Below are positions 1,989-20,034 of a DNA stretch of 32,354 nt, one piece after another. The translations under genes were made by a program, and so were the position numbers. Origin of the DNA: Acidimicrobiaceae bacterium (GTDB lineage: Bacteria; Actinomycetota; Acidimicrobiia; Acidimicrobiales; Bog-793); assembly GCA_003136185.1 (NCBI GenBank), contig PLDN01000081.1, positions 1 to 32,354 on the forward strand. The letters are read 5' to 3'. The stretch's first letter is position 1. Each line of letters starts with the position of its first letter. The notes beneath the pieces are model-generated. The model ran no database searches. It had not been told where the DNA came from and was given only the letters and a program-made list of their open reading frames with translations.

Positions 1989-2771
1989 TCAAACCGCAGC
2001 GAGCGCGCTGACGTCGAGGCGGTAGCCGATCCCAGCGGAGAACTCGGCGACGACGCTGAACCGGTCACCGCGCACAATCGTGCGTCGCCATTCGACGGGA
2101 CGCTCGCGTACGAAGCCGAGCCGTTCGATCGCGAACGCGGCGACGCCCGGCGGGAGCTCGAGCAGTGATCGCTCCGGTCGGCTGGGCGTCACCGCGCGGA
2201 AGCGTTCTCGACCGCCGGTGAGACGCATTCCGGTTCGGCTCGCGAGCTCGTCGTAGAAGCCGACTCGGGTGAAGTCGACGCCGAGGAGCGGCTCGGCGAT
2301 CTCTGCGGGAAACCACACCCGGTCGATCGCAAGCGGTTCACCGTCCGCGAGCCGCAGGCGTTCGAGATGGACGAGGGCGGCGTCGCCCGGGAGCTCGAGG
2401 CGCTCTGCGACGTCGGGATCGTGGAGAACCGACAGCGATCGGACGATGCTGGTCGGCTCGAGGCCGGCCGCTTCTACCGAGTCGTAGAGGCTGTAGAGCG
2501 CAGCGAGTGGCTGCTCGATCTCGACCTGGTCCCCGAGACGCGGCCGCCGCCCGCGCCCGGCCACGACCGTGCCCTCGGAACGGAGCCGCCGGAGCGCTTC
2601 ACGCACCGTGTTGCGGCTCACGCCGTAGGCGTCGACGAGCGCCATCTCGCTCGGGAAGGCGTCGGCAAACTCGCCGTCGTCGACGCGGCGTCGCAGGTCG
2701 TCGAGGAGCTGAGCCCAGAGCGGGAGTGGGCTCTGTCGGTCGAGAGCGGTCGGAGAATGGATCGTTTTCAT
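1989..2771 (-). CDS. GntR-family (HutC-type) transcriptional regulator
   Basis: A 260-aa regulator. The N-terminal winged helix-turn-helix is clear at about residues 15-75 (PLPLWAQLLDDLRRRV, then FPSEMALVDAYGVSRNTVRE and ALRRLRSEGTVVAGRGR). The rest is a UTRA ligand-binding domain (about 90-255) with VHLERLRLADGEPLAIDR and a closing ERPVEWRRTIVRGDRFS, typical of the HutC subfamily. Such proteins are usually repressors released by a sugar, amino acid or carboxylate ligand. The reading frame is open well upstream, but the helix-turn-helix begins just after ATG 2771; an ATG at 2795 adds eight residues and is the main alternative. It is followed without a gap by the cation-efflux-like gene, which is its most obvious target along with itself. 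Confidence 0.9.
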   Translation of the reverse strand: MKTIHSPTALDRQSPLPLWAQLLDDLRRRVDDGEFADAFPSEMALVDAYGVSRNTVREALRRLRSEGTVVAGRGRRPRLGDQVEIEQPLAALYSLYDSVEAAGLEPTSIVRSLSVLHDPDVAERLELPGDAALVHLERLRLADGEPLAIDRVWFPAEIAEPLLGVDFTRVGFYDELASRTGMRLTGGRERFRAVTPSRPERSLLELPPGVAAFAIERLGFVRERPVEWRRTIVRGDRFSVVAEFSAGIGYRLDVSALAAV

Positions 2772-2795
2772 CACATGCGCACAGCGCGCGCCCAT

Positions 2796-2805
2796 TGTAC
2801 CTACA
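2796..2805. promoter_or_regulatory. Short palindrome upstream of the GntR gene, possible operator
   Basis: TGTACCTACA is a TGTA-CC-TACA inverted repeat directly ahead of the GntR start region and between it and the rightward methyltransferase. HutC-type regulators often bind short GT..AC palindromes in their own promoters. The repeat is only 4+4 bases, so chance is quite possible. Confidence 0.25.
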
Positions 2806-2948
2806 TTGGTATCGTTTGGGTTAATGGAGCCCTTGGGACCAGATTCGGTCAGTAGGGGAGAACGCCTCTCGGTCCGAACCCCGACCCATTCAGTGATGCT
2901 TGTTAGCCAATCGTTCTTGGCGCGAAGAGTGAGGACGAGGAGAGCATT

Positions 2949-3566
2949 GTGATGTCCGAAAATGCCGCTACGTCCGGTCTCGTCGGCTCGGGGGTTATGC
3001 ACCCGCACGGCTTGCACCGCCTCCTGCATCCGGTTTGGTTCGTTCCCGTGCACGCGACGCTCGCGCGCCTGGTTGCCGTCCGAGCCGGGGAGCGGGTAAT
3101 CGATGTCGGTGCGGGCACCGGCGCCTTGTCGAAACGCCTCGTCCGCTCGGGTGCAACGGTGATCTGCCTGGAGCCGGACGCCGGCAGTCTTGCTGCCGCA
3201 CGCCACAGACTTGACGGCGAGCACGGGGAATTCATCCAGGATTCCGTCGAACACATCCCTCTTCCCGATGCATCTGTGGATGCGGTGGTTGCCTCGGTCA
3301 CGGCCCACCATTGGACGGATCAGGATGGCGGCTTCGCTGAATTGTTCCGCGTGATTCGGCCGGGCGGCCGGGTCGTGCTCGCGGAGTTCAAGTCCTCGGG
3401 ACCGTTGATGCGCCGCCTACGCCGGCTTGCCGGCAGCAAACACGCGAACGCCCCGAGCCTTGAGGACTGGCGAGCCCGGCTCGAAAGGGCTGGCTTCGAT
3501 GAAGTGGGAACAGGTCGAGGAGGCTGGGTGAGGGGCTTCGCTCTGTTCATCGTCGCCGTCCGCTGA
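2949..3566 (+). CDS. Class I SAM-dependent methyltransferase
   Basis: A 205-aa protein with a Methyltransf_11-type Rossmann core. Motif I is RVIDVGAGTGALSKRL (about residues 50-65), followed by the acidic strand end VICLEPDAGSL, the motif around DSVEHIPLPDASVDAVVAS, and ELFRVIRPGGRVVLAEF, the post-motif typical of small-molecule methyltransferases. The substrate is not evident; the N-terminal HPHGLHRLLHPVWF region probably forms the lid. An AGGAG at 2938-2942 serves either GTG 2949 or ATG 2952. It is divergent from the GntR regulator and 114 bases ahead of the sulfur operon, so it may be read with either or alone. Confidence 0.88.
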   Translation: MMSENAATSGLVGSGVMHPHGLHRLLHPVWFVPVHATLARLVAVRAGERVIDVGAGTGALSKRLVRSGATVICLEPDAGSLAAARHRLDGEHGEFIQDSVEHIPLPDASVDAVVASVTAHHWTDQDGGFAELFRVIRPGGRVVLAEFKSSGPLMRRLRRLAGSKHANAPSLEDWRARLERAGFDEVGTGRGGWVRGFALFIVAVR

Positions 3567-11976: not shown

Positions 11977-12112
11977 GGGGCGAGCATGGTCAAGTGGAAT
12001 CCCACCAAGGCATGGGACGATAGCGCCTTGTCGGCTCTCGGATCCACAACGCGAAACGCCGAAGTCCGGTCAAACCGGATCAAGCCCACGCGTCGTCACT
12101 CGTCGACGGCCC

Positions 12113-12141
12113 TTGACGGGCGCGGCTCGTATCCCTATAGT
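12113..12141 (+). promoter_or_regulatory. Sigma70/SigA-like promoter of the TetR gene
   Basis: TTGACG at 12113-12118 and TATAGT at 12136-12141 are separated by exactly 17 bases, the best promoter match I see in the window. Transcription would begin near 12147-12149, giving a very short leader before ATG 12165. Confidence 0.6.
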
Positions 12142-12146
12142 TCTTG

Positions 12147-12162
12147 CCTAACGGCGATTAGG
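12147..12162. promoter_or_regulatory. Possible TetR autoregulatory operator
   Basis: CCTAACGGCGATTAGG has CCTAA and TTAGG arms around six bases. It sits at the expected transcription start, just downstream of the -10 box, where a TetR-type repressor would block its own promoter. Confidence 0.35.
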
Positions 12163-12288
12163 GGATGACGAACGACGACACACCGAGCGACCGAGGACGA
12201 CAATACTCCGCTGGCATCTACCCACGACCAAATCCTTGATGTAGCAGCGCAACTGTTCCTGGAGCGTGGATACGATGCCACAACCCAG

Positions 12289-12843
12289 GTGAGTATCGCG
12301 CGGCGCGTAGGTATTTCGGCCCCATCGCTCTACTGGCATTACAAATCGAAGGAGGATATACTATTCGCCTTTCTCGAGCGGCAGTGGATCGATTTCAGTG
12401 CTCGCATGAAGGAAGCGTCGGGGCAAGGAACGGCGACTCAACGCCTTCGAAATCTTGCGACCTCTCACGTTCGCTACGAAACAGATCGTTTGATAGAAGC
12501 ACGAGCATTCAGTCAGCAGTTCAGCAAGAGCCAACTGCATCGTACGCTACCGCCCGAGCGCAGGAAGATACTGCAGGGTTATCTCGACCGCTACCTGATG
12601 ATGTGCTGCTCTATCATCGAAGAAGGAGTGGCTGACGGCAGGTTTATGGTATCAAATCCACGGGCGGTCGGCTTCGCCATCATCAATATGTGCGAGACTG
12701 TAGCGGGTTGGTTCGATCCGTCTAACGTTCTCACTGCTGAGGCGATGGCAAGCCTTTATGGCGACTTAGCACTTCGGTTAGTTGGGGTTATAGCGGATCA
12801 GTCACCTGGCGAAGATGATGTCAGAGTCCAACCATCTCGATAA
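12289..12843 (+). CDS. TetR/AcrR-family transcriptional regulator (N-terminal start disturbed)
   Basis: The 184-aa frame from GTG 12289 starts in the middle of the DNA-binding domain: IARRVGISAPSLYWHYKSKE is helices 2-3 plus the start of helix 4. Helix 1 is encoded upstream in the same frame (QILDVAAQLFLERGYDATTQ, 12226-12285), but that frame has no ATG, GTG or TTG after the stop at 12166-12168. A plausible N-terminus, MTNDDTPSDRGRQ, begins at ATG 12165 in another frame. Either a one-base indel lies between about 12195 and 12225, or translation starts at a non-standard codon. The C-terminal ligand domain is helical, with a tail such as TetR_C_33-like proteins have. It probably controls the VOC, permease and SDR genes that follow in the same direction. 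Confidence 0.82.
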   Translation: MSIARRVGISAPSLYWHYKSKEDILFAFLERQWIDFSARMKEASGQGTATQRLRNLATSHVRYETDRLIEARAFSQQFSKSQLHRTLPPERRKILQGYLDRYLMMCCSIIEEGVADGRFMVSNPRAVGFAIINMCETVAGWFDPSNVLTAEAMASLYGDLALRLVGVIADQSPGEDDVRVQPSR

Positions 12844-13361: not shown

Positions 13362-14309
13362 GTGTTCAGCTTTATAGTCAGACGACTCGGACAGGCCGTT
13401 GCAGTCGTCCTGCTCGTGACCTTGATCGTCTTTATCCTGCTGAAAGTGCTCCCGGGGGGCACTGCTCGTGCACTGCTCGGGCCGAGGGCCTCCACGTCAG
13501 CTATCAAGACGTTCAACCATGCGAACGGCTTCGATAGGCCAGTGATCATTCAGTATCTCAATTGGATTTGGAAGATTCTCCACTGGAACTTAGGCTATTC
13601 ATATAAATACAACCAACCCGTCTCGACGCTGCTTGGAACCGTTCTTCCGAAGAGCCTTCTTCTGGTCGGCATGGCGATGTTGCTTGCGATCATTATAGCT
13701 GTTCCGGTTGGAATGGTGCAGGGAGCGCGTCGCAATCGAGTGCTTGATCACGTCATTACCGGCCTCGAACTGGTGTTTTATTCCATGCCGGTGTTCTTCC
13801 TCGGGATCCTGTTGATCCTGTATCTATCCGTCGATCACCACGTATTTCCCTCCGAAGCTCCCCAGGGCGCCACGGTCGCACAGGTTATCCAAGACCCACG
13901 CGGTCTGGTGATGCCCATTCTCACGTTGATGCTGATCACGGTAGCTCTCTTTGCTCGGTATATGCGCTCATCAACGCTTGACGTGTTGGTGCAGGATTAT
14001 GTGCGGACGGCAAGGGCGAAGGGAAACGGGCAAACTGGCGTTCTTCGTCACCACGTGTTTCGGAACGCGCTGCTGCCGGTTGTGACGCTCATCGGCCTGA
14101 GCTTCCCGACGTTGGTTTCTGGCGCCATCGTCACTGAGACCATTTTCAACTACCCAGGAATGGGCCTGATGTTCTGGACTGCCGCACAGAACCGTGATTA
14201 CGCCATCCTGCTCGGCTTCACGCTGGTGACAGGCATCGCGACGGTAACCGGCTCCCTGGCGGCGGACATTGCCTACGCCGCGCTCGACCCGCGAGTGAGA
14301 GTCCATTGA
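13362..14309 (+). CDS. Dpp/Opp-type ABC transporter permease (DppB-like)
   Basis: A 315-aa inner-membrane permease of the peptide/nickel importer family. It opens with FIVRRLGQAVAVVLLVTLIV, the typical first helix, then LKVLPGGTARALLG. Five further hydrophobic segments follow. The ATPase-coupling (EAA) loop is DYVRTARAKGNGQTGVLRHH from residue 212, ahead of FRNALLPVVTLIG, and the end is the usual LAADIAYAALDPRVR. The GTG start has GGGAG upstream. With the DppC-like gene and the lipoprotein at 18.2 kb it should form an importer for a peptide, amino-acid-like or other amphipathic solute. No ATPase gene is in the window. Confidence 0.92.
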   Translation: MFSFIVRRLGQAVAVVLLVTLIVFILLKVLPGGTARALLGPRASTSAIKTFNHANGFDRPVIIQYLNWIWKILHWNLGYSYKYNQPVSTLLGTVLPKSLLLVGMAMLLAIIIAVPVGMVQGARRNRVLDHVITGLELVFYSMPVFFLGILLILYLSVDHHVFPSEAPQGATVAQVIQDPRGLVMPILTLMLITVALFARYMRSSTLDVLVQDYVRTARAKGNGQTGVLRHHVFRNALLPVVTLIGLSFPTLVSGAIVTETIFNYPGMGLMFWTAAQNRDYAILLGFTLVTGIATVTGSLAADIAYAALDPRVRVH

Positions 14310-14345
14310 CACCGGTAGTCCCTCATTCCTTGTTTGCGCAGGCGA

Positions 14346-14372
14346 GTCAGCATGGGACATTCCCATGCTGAC
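14346..14372 (+). promoter_or_regulatory. Perfect 12-bp hairpin covering the start codon of the second permease gene
   Basis: GTCAGCATGGGA and TCCCATGCTGAC are exact reverse complements around a CAT loop. The ATG at 14365 of the DppC-like gene lies inside the right arm. As RNA this would be a very stable stem hiding the start codon, so it may set or switch translation of the second permease. No separate ribosome site is visible just ahead of the stem. Confidence 0.7.
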
Positions 14373-15282
14373 CGAGGCCGCTCTTGCTCCGGCCGCGGGT
14401 CTCGGTGACTCCGACTATGGAGGCACGCGCCCGCGGTTCTCGACCCTGAGATCGGCAGGACACACATTCCTCGAGCACCGAATGGCCGTCGTCGGGCTCG
14501 GTTTCCTGCTATTCGTTGTCCTCTTTTGCTTTGTGGGGCCGCTCCTCTACAAGACCAATCAGGTGAGCGCAAACGTGGTCGTGGCTACGTTGCCGCCGAG
14601 CGGCCAACATTGGCTAGGTACGGACGAGAACGGATTCGACGTGCTCGGGCGCCTCATGCTGGGTGGTCAGACGTCGCTTGAGGTCGGTCTCGGGGCTGCG
14701 ATTGTCGGGGCTTCGATGGGAGTCGTCTGGGGATCAGTTGCGGGGTTCTGCGGCGGTGTGATCGACAGCATCATGATGCGTGTCGTTGATGCCGTGCTGG
14801 CGTTACCAGCTCTCCTGCTCCTCCTCGTCTTGGCCGTGATCATCCAGCCATCAGTGCCGATGCTGATCATCATCGTCGGGGTGGTCTCCTGGCTCGTGCC
14901 TGCGAGACTGGTCCGAGGCGAGACGCTCACGCTAAAGACTCGTGAATATGTCGATGCCTCACGTGTGGTCGGAGCGAGTCGCAGAAGAACTGTCGCCCGT
15001 CACATCCTCCCTAACGTGCTCGGGACGATCATCGTCAATGCGACGTTCCAGGTTGCTGACGCCATCATTCTGGTGGCGTATCTGAGCTTTCTAGGCCTCG
15101 GCATTTCGCCACCGGCAACGAACTGGGGAGCGATGCTGTCTGACGGCCTCAACTATGCCCTGAGCGGGTATTGGTGGCTGATCTTTCCGCCTGGCGTGAC
15201 CATTGTTCTCACCGTCGTCGCCGTCAATTATGTCGGGGACGGCTTGCGTGACGCGTTCGAAGTGAGATTGCGAGTTCGGTAA
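14365..15282 (+). CDS. Dpp/Opp-type ABC transporter permease (DppC-like)
   Basis: A 305-aa partner permease. It has the expected N-terminal cytoplasmic piece, a first helix MAVVGLGFLLFVVLFCFVGP and the DppC hallmark HWLGTDENGFDVLGRLMLGG. The coupling loop REYVDASRVVGASRRR is at 193-208, before HILPNVLGTIIV, and FLGLGISPPATNWGAMLSDG is near the end. Together with the DppB-like protein it forms the membrane channel. It starts 55 bases after the first permease ends, and its start codon is buried in the 14346-14372 hairpin. The ATG at 14365 is the first good start in frame. The SDR gene follows 52 bases downstream. Confidence 0.92.
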   Translation: MLTEAALAPAAGLGDSDYGGTRPRFSTLRSAGHTFLEHRMAVVGLGFLLFVVLFCFVGPLLYKTNQVSANVVVATLPPSGQHWLGTDENGFDVLGRLMLGGQTSLEVGLGAAIVGASMGVVWGSVAGFCGGVIDSIMMRVVDAVLALPALLLLLVLAVIIQPSVPMLIIIVGVVSWLVPARLVRGETLTLKTREYVDASRVVGASRRRTVARHILPNVLGTIIVNATFQVADAIILVAYLSFLGLGISPPATNWGAMLSDGLNYALSGYWWLIFPPGVTIVLTVVAVNYVGDGLRDAFEVRLRVR

Positions 15283-18009: not shown

Positions 18010-18150
18010 CGCGGAAGATGCGGCGATATCCCGGCAGAGTTTGACGGCGACAAGAGGTCCGAGTTGAAGAGTCCATTGAGTCAATTGAGGAGTGACATGC
18101 CAGCTGATCGAGTCTCATCAGGGGTACGCAACTATCGAGGAGGACAACAA

Positions 18151-20034
18151 ATGACAGGACCAACAAGATCCGCCGGAGCTCGACGTTACGTGTCGAGACA
18201 CTTCTCGACGAAAACTGCCATCGTCTGTCTTCTCCTGGCTGGGATCCTGGCCAGCTGCAGCTCGAGCGCCACAGCGCCAAGCACGTCGAAGGCCGTCAAG
18301 CCGGTGCAAGGTGGGACTGTCAGCTTTGCAGAGCCTCCGGCGACCACGCCATCTTGGATCCTTCCCTTCGTGGATACCACGGACTACTCCTACTTCACCG
18401 ACTTTGACTGGGACTGGCAGATGTGGCGTCCCGTGTACTTCGTCGGGACACCCACGAGTCCGGACGTCGACTACTCCGAGAGCCTTGCGAACAAGCCGGT
18501 ATTCTCGAACAACGACACCACGGTATCCGTGACGCTAAAACCTTGGAAGTGGTCTGACGGCACCCCGATCACGGCTCGCAACGTGCTGTTCTTCTTCAAC
18601 ATCTTGAAGGTCGAGAAGCTCAACTGGTGGCTGTACATCCCCGGCTCGTTTCCCGACGACGTCAAGTCGGCGAAGGTGACGAGCGAGCGGACGATCCAGT
18701 TCCAGTTGATTCACGCCTACAACCCAGAGTTGATCTCCCAGAACGACCTCCAGAGTCTCACGCCTCTGCCACTCGCGTGGGACCGGACTTCGCTCTCAGG
18801 CCCGCGTGGCGCTGGGTCCACCCTCCCAGCGGGGACCGGCAACGGGCTCGACATGACACCCGCCGGCGCCCGTCGGGTCTATGCGTTCTTGATCTCTCAG
18901 AACAAGGACCTGGCGGCGTACTCCACTAACTGGCTCTGGAAGATCGTCGATGGCCCGTTCAAGCTCTCGACGTACTCGATCACCGGAATGACCTCGCTCG
19001 TACCCAACCGGGAGTACGGGGGTGTCCAGGCCAAGATCAGCAGACTCACATTCCTTCCCTTCACCTCGGCGTCGAGCGAATTCGCCGCGCTGCGGTCGGG
19101 CCAGAGTATCGACGTCGGGTACACCTCCACCAGCTATCTCAACCAGCAGAGCGCCCTTACGGGATACACACTGGCGGCTTGGCCTGCGTGGGCCTTCAGT
19201 GATTGGTTCATCAACTTCAACAATCCCACGGCCGGGCCGGCCTTCCGTCAGTTGTACATAAGAGAGGCGATGCAGTCCCTTATAGATCAACCGACGATTG
19301 ACAAGTACGTGTACAAGGGGTACGCCGAGCCGAGCCTTGGGAGCGTTCCCCTCTATCCTCCGAACAGCTGGCTTTCTTCCTATGAGAAGTCCTATCCATA
19401 CCCGTACAAGCCCGCGCTGGCCGTCAAGCTGCTGAGCAGTCACGGTTGGGCTGTGCACCCCTCAGGTGTCACCACCTGCACGCGTCCGGGGACCGGATCT
19501 AGCGACTGCGGAGCTGGGATCGCCGCGGGAACAGGCCTCACCTTCCAGTTGAGCTACAGCAACGGCCTGCCCACCAACCAGACGCAGGCCCTCGTGGAGA
19601 AAGGTGACTTCTCTAAGGCCGGAATCGTGATCAACCTCCGACCCGTCACACCGGCCGAGCTGTTCTCGCTCTCACCTACCTGTGCGCCCTCGCAGTCGGC
19701 GTGTTCCTGGCAGCTTATGTCCTACCAGGACTACACGCCGTTCCCGTACCCGTTCGGGGGAATCGACTTTGAAACCGGCGGGGTGTACAACTTCGGCAGC
19801 TACAGCGATCCGACGACGGACAAGCTGCTGGCCGAAGCAAAGGTCGCGTCGACGCCGAGCGGTCTCAGCAAATCGTTCATCGGGAGCGAGAACCGTATAT
19901 TGCAACAGCTTTCGGAACTCTTCCAGCCGACAACGCCGTACCAGCTGACAGAGGTTCTCTCGAACTTGCACGGTGTAACGCCACAAAGCCCGGAGCTGGC
20001 GATCACACCTGAGCTCTGGTATTTCACGAAATAG
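18151..20034 (+). CDS. Family 5 extracellular substrate-binding lipoprotein of an ABC importer
   Basis: A 627-aa lipoprotein. The basic N-terminus and hydrophobic core TAIVCLLLAGILASC end in a lipobox with the lipid-carrying cysteine at residue 36, followed by a serine-rich linker. The mature protein has SBP_bac_5 features: VSVTLKPWKWSDGTPITARN early, AFRQLYIREAMQSLIDQPTI in the middle. It is on the long side for the family. It would capture the solute outside the cell for the permeases at 13.4-15.3 kb. I chose ATG 18151, with GAGGAGG at 18137-18143; an upstream ATG-rich extension from 18064 would put non-signal sequence in front. The tryptophan/tyrosine-rich mature region suggests an aromatic or hydrophobic ligand pocket, which is inference only. 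Confidence 0.9.
   Translation: MTGPTRSAGARRYVSRHFSTKTAIVCLLLAGILASCSSSATAPSTSKAVKPVQGGTVSFAEPPATTPSWILPFVDTTDYSYFTDFDWDWQMWRPVYFVGTPTSPDVDYSESLANKPVFSNNDTTVSVTLKPWKWSDGTPITARNVLFFFNILKVEKLNWWLYIPGSFPDDVKSAKVTSERTIQFQLIHAYNPELISQNDLQSLTPLPLAWDRTSLSGPRGAGSTLPAGTGNGLDMTPAGARRVYAFLISQNKDLAAYSTNWLWKIVDGPFKLSTYSITGMTSLVPNREYGGVQAKISRLTFLPFTSASSEFAALRSGQSIDVGYTSTSYLNQQSALTGYTLAAWPAWAFSDWFINFNNPTAGPAFRQLYIREAMQSLIDQPTIDKYVYKGYAEPSLGSVPLYPPNSWLSSYEKSYPYPYKPALAVKLLSSHGWAVHPSGVTTCTRPGTGSSDCGAGIAAGTGLTFQLSYSNGLPTNQTQALVEKGDFSKAGIVINLRPVTPAELFSLSPTCAPSQSACSWQLMSYQDYTPFPYPFGGIDFETGGVYNFGSYSDPTTDKLLAEAKVASTPSGLSKSFIGSENRILQQLSELFQPTTPYQLTEVLSNLHGVTPQSPELAITPELWYFTK

Follow-up and report, generated by a model that had tools for sequence, protein, structure and literature searches.

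A perfect 12-bp hairpin covers the start codon of a dppC-like permease gene in the window (the whole stretch of DNA that was analysed, 32,354 nt) and is likely, from its predicted folding, to mask this start in the RNA. We somewhat favour the view that the hairpin is private to its lineage and most likely fortuitous, and that it is at most a fixed damper on dppC, not a regulated switch. The sequence-only reading had placed the hairpin at 14346-14372, with the ATG of the dppC-like gene in its right arm. Sequence and coordinates proved exact: the arms are 100% complementary, the loop has 3 nt and the ATG lies at 14365-14367. The repeat thus spans part of the 55-nt gap between the dppB-like and dppC-like genes and the first dppC codons. 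The features of this junction are the following.

13362-14309, plus strand: dppB-like permease gene, BPD_transp_1 with BPD_transp_1_N; GTG start after a GGGAG Shine-Dalgarno (SD) motif; stop TGA at 14307-14309.
14306-14371, plus strand: possible relay open reading frame (ORF) of 21 codons; its TTG shares nucleotides with the dppB stop (TTGA), and the TGA that closes it, at 14369-14371, overlaps the dppC start (ATGCTGA).
14346-14357, plus strand: left arm, GTCAGCATGGGA; contains the CAT that pairs with the start codon and an SD-like GGGA at 14354-14357.
14352-14408, plus strand: 18-codon ORF from a second ATG, in the left arm, preceded by AGGCGAG and out of frame with dppC; its use is only hypothetical.
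14358-14360, plus strand: loop, CAT, 3 nt.
14361-14372, plus strand: right arm, TCCCATGCTGAC; contains the UCCC that pairs with GGGA, and the dppC ATG at 14365-14367.
14365-15282, plus strand: dppC-like permease gene, 305 aa; OppC_N at residues 27-70, BPD_transp_1 at 119-303.

Both permease genes are intact by their Pfam domains and are of the oligopeptide/dipeptide type; they are probably co-transcribed as one RNA. The ATG at 14365 is the sole ATG, GTG or TTG in the dppC frame before codon 40 and the only one that yields a full-length DppC. No ribosome site had been visible in the sequence-only reading. This needs correction, since a weak SD-like GGGA ends 7 nt before the ATG, buried within the left arm. 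Leaderless initiation of dppC was considered and rejected, as there is no TANNNT-type -10 box at the right distance.

Folding of 14290-14400 (111 nt) gives -48.6 kcal/mol (z = -2.87); the hairpin on its own folds at -20.6 kcal/mol, and its base pairs have probabilities of 0.76-1.0. In a 200-nt context the ATG at 14365 has an unpaired probability of at most 0.0008, i.e. it is predicted to be paired more than 99.9% of the time, in line with the earlier suggestion that the stem hides the start codon in RNA. The GGGA is mostly paired as well, and its partner is the UCCC immediately 5' of the AUG. Since GGGA lies in the left arm and the ATG in the right, both initiation signals would be masked. The folding energy of the start region (-30 to +29) is -30.7 kcal/mol. 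Among the roughly called starts of the same genome 1.0-1.5% reach this value or go beyond it, and none of 89 other dppC starts, from relatives, does so (mean -16.7). This strength counts against a fortuitous origin. So does the UCCC before the AUG, whose exact pairing with GGGA looks designed. Masking is thus supported by the folding; the regulatory function that had been proposed, be it the setting of a subunit ratio or a switch, is not supported.

If the stem forms as predicted on a single dppB-dppC RNA, it would bury the weak GGGA/AUG site, and fewer ribosomes would be expected to initiate afresh on dppC. DppC would then come mainly from ribosomes that end dppB and either continue or re-initiate across the 55-nt gap.

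DppC relatives were drawn from 60 nearby genomes, a public genome scan, and 397 order-level and 396 phylum-level genomes. The best of them are 62-63% identical in amino acids and no close orthologue was found; in the DppC tree the window's protein stands alone on a long branch of 0.71 changes per site. None of the 94 other dppB-dppC junctions, all at most 63% identical in DppC, has a matching stem on the dppC start. Relatives with the same gene pair and no stem had been named beforehand as evidence against a role, and this is what we found, within that range of identity: 82 of the 95 distinct junctions lack even a 7-bp perfect stem, and the number of junction stems that reach 8 bp is about what chance would give at the stem density of the window's own genome. 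In 60 of the 95 junctions a dppC start lies on or directly next to the dppB stop, and the same holds for the start in a paralogous pair of the window's genome. Taken together, the absence of the stem from relatives and the frequent overlap of start and stop mean that the stem is private and that most relatives couple the two genes by overlap. Recent selection on the stem is possible, since there is no close orthologue.

The palindrome itself is a single occurrence. No other copy was found in the window, nor elsewhere in its own genome at up to 3 mismatches. A plasmid search was negative. The 34 family genomes that were searched contain no close match to the palindrome; at up to 2 mismatches, family genomes have none in a similar setting, and matches elsewhere are at control levels. 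An ancestral stem or frameshifted start was also considered, from a likeness between the DppC N-terminus and that of a locus of the same group (L093, bog_793; NLPLEEAALAP versus DIPMLTEAALAP) and from an 8-bp stem there. The idea was dropped: L093 is not near in the tree, N-termini are hypervariable and the junctions have about as many stems of 8 bp or longer as chance predicts. The L093 stem (GAGCGGGA/TCCCGCTC) lies about 40-66 nt past the dppB stop, early in the dppC frame; it has a GGGA/TCCC core in common with the dppC stem, which we judge to be chance.

How often do such stems arise by accident? We read 1.55 Mb of the organism's own genome in stretches. We counted 13 perfect stems with 12 bp or more (loop 3-8) in 1.32 Mb, roughly one in every 100 kb. 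Most are within ORFs, and a first-order Markov null predicts about 3. A 12-bp stem is thus mildly unusual for a 32-kb window and not extraordinary. Scaled to 3.81 Mb, with one start per about 1 kb, roughly one start codon per genome should be covered by a stem of at least 12 bp by accident. This expectation, the absence of the stem from the 94 other junctions and the single occurrence of the palindrome all favour the fortuitous reading. In a control with 980 called genes (1.55 Mb), stems of at least 12 bp cover starts twice, against a mean of 0.24 at offsets of 30-360 nt. This speaks against the fortuitous reading, but it is a weak hint, given that one of the two cases is the selected finding itself. 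Shorter stems show no excess on starts relative to neighbouring positions (10 against 7.9 for at least 8 bp, 4 against 2.9 for at least 9 bp). The same 980 genes have 20 stems of at least 8 bp at -30 from the called start, against a mean of 7.9 elsewhere, about 2.5 times as many. The second start-covering case (L165 18293-18323; contig C24, same genome) is a perfect 12-bp stem with a loop of 7, unrelated in sequence to the dppC stem. The GTG/ATG start that it covers lies 42 nt past a TauE/SafE-type gene and belongs to a lipoprotein with a copper type II monooxygenase domain. With about one perfect 12-bp stem on a start expected per such genome, assigning a function to an individual case requires evidence from conservation or reporters. 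Should the dppC stem have a controlling role, it would illustrate in a simple way how a transporter can set the ratio between its two membrane subunits, with one start codon masked.

The sequence-only reading had also made translation of dppC depend on read-through of ribosomes from the first gene, or on a factor that opens the stem. Read-through into the stem does not hold: dppB stops at 14307-14309, 36 nt 5' of the stem, and its frame meets a further stop, TAG, at 14316, which makes direct opening of the stem by dppB ribosomes unlikely. Some dependence on upstream ribosomes may still be inferred. It is established that genes with masked starts depend on coupling (review PMC12548453). Like dppB-dppC (+55 nt), rpmI-rplT (+52 nt) and phage f1 VII/IX are co-directional pairs with a stem over the downstream start (PMC12548453). 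Coupling by RNA unfolding combines a stem that masks the downstream ribosome-binding site or start, which dppC has, with translation of the upstream ORF into that stem, which dppB lacks; only the hypothetical relay ORF crosses. In f1 the upstream gene must reach at least the hairpin, and moving its stop well upstream abolished coupling (PMC12548453). In contrast, dppB ends 36 nt before its stem, which would not be unfolded by its ribosomes unless they re-initiate.

Re-initiation would be permitted by the weak folding of the RNA just 3' of the dppB stop, which is less structured than randomised sequence. It would be the basis of an evolved relay, in which dppB ribosomes would re-initiate at TTG 14306, cross the stem, stop at 14369-14371 and re-initiate at AUG 14365, while the stem bars other entry and so ties DppC to DppB. 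The relay ORF does cross the whole stem, overlaps the dppC start and joins the dppB stop through an NTGA overlap, a common arrangement; low structure past this stop would favour it, and tight coupling is the norm among relatives, as the 60 overlapping or adjoining junctions show. Yet bridging ORFs are common: the same genome has them in 14 of its 68 co-directional pairs with 30-100 nt gaps, and one arises in 68% of shuffles of the dppB-dppC intergenic stretch. Moreover, the relay ORF has a weak TTG start with at best weak SD pairing, and a GC3 of 0.55 against 0.68-0.71 in the permeases. We regard such a relay as unlikely, and its strict form, a three-part relay via the 21-codon connector in which DppC is made solely by ribosomes fresh from DppB, as more doubtful still.

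The junction can also be compared with ribosome termination structures (RTS), whose signal peaks about 5 nt past the stop (PMC7518266). The resemblance lies in a stable intercistronic fold in a gap of more than 25 nt that would hinder re-initiation. The RTS definition asks for a gap of at least 25 nt and at least 5 consecutive 40-nt windows opening from -10 to +20 with negative delta-LFE, one of them at or below -6 kcal/mol. Sampled windows opening at +8 to +20 formally reach these values, whereas windows opening between -10 and +6 have less structure than randomised sequence. Since only windows that include the stem qualify, the signal is the start-codon stem and not a structure at the stop. 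Unlike an RTS, then, the junction has its fold at the dppC start, and the first 6 or so window positions past the dppB stop are less structured than randomised.

Might the true dppC start lie elsewhere, at ATG 14482 or at a non-canonical upstream codon, leaving the stem as untranslated or ordinary coding sequence? DppC N-termini in relatives are highly variable in length and sequence, and the dppC frame is open for 22 codons 5' of 14365. But this upstream stretch has no in-frame ATG, GTG or TTG, and OppC_N runs from residue 27, so that a start at ATG 14482 would truncate this domain; the SD pairing of that ATG is also the poorest among the sites tested. A start elsewhere is improbable on these grounds.

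We find it equally improbable that the palindrome is a DNA operator, e.g. for the TetR-type protein encoded at 12289-12843. A perfect intergenic palindrome of 27 bp would fit a dimer site in size, and a TetR-family gene does lie two genes upstream. However, the site overlaps a start codon within what looks like an operon, and nothing resembling a promoter was matched between the two permease genes; no inverted repeat is found at 12100-12400, upstream of the TetR gene; and, as described above, the rest of the window and of the genome (up to 3 mismatches) has no similar site. The protein site offered earlier as an alternative to an RNA stem hence gained no positive evidence. The TetR-family ORF itself matches its helix-turn-helix (HTH) profile only from position 22, so that the listed GTG probably lies downstream of the true start, unless the gene is truncated. 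Another regulator, a GntR/UTRA protein on the minus strand (1989-3311), has about 200 residues before its GntR domain that match no Pfam family.

At the RNA level, the hairpin might instead set the dppB:dppC ratio through mRNA processing, mRNA stability or pausing. Stable intercistronic hairpins can shield upstream RNA from 3' exonucleases, as in REP-type elements. Unlike REP elements, the dppC hairpin has no second copy; its 3' tail (CGAGGCCGCT) has no run of T, and a terminator scan did not call it. We consider this role very improbable; an intrinsic terminator was rejected on the same tail and scan.

The least credible reading, to which we give hardly any weight, is a regulated RNA switch, a stem that opens in response to temperature or is opened by a ligand, protein or small RNA. 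In its favour, the hairpin sequesters an SD-like site together with an AUG, which RNA thermometers and repressor hairpins also do. Against it, Rfam gave no match in 14100-14600 at E values up to 1, the RNA has no competing fold of similar weight, the stem is not seen in relatives, and 12 GC-rich base pairs at -20.6 kcal/mol are probably too stable for a simple thermometer. The dppC stem also differs from these systems in being perfect and GC-rich, with a 3-nt loop and no graded internal mismatches, and in having no known conservation or dependence on conditions. As for a factor that opens it, neither a switch partner nor an RNA family nor a second copy of the palindrome was found. The fortuitous, lineage-private hairpin, at most a fixed damper, is the reading that we retain.

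The wider setting of the transporter deserves mention. Among the larger window ORFs scanned no ABC ATPase was seen, and the ATPase partner may be elsewhere. The permease pair (13362-15282) and an SBP_bac_5 protein (18064-20034) lie amid genes of the FAD oxidoreductase, SDR and amidohydrolase types.
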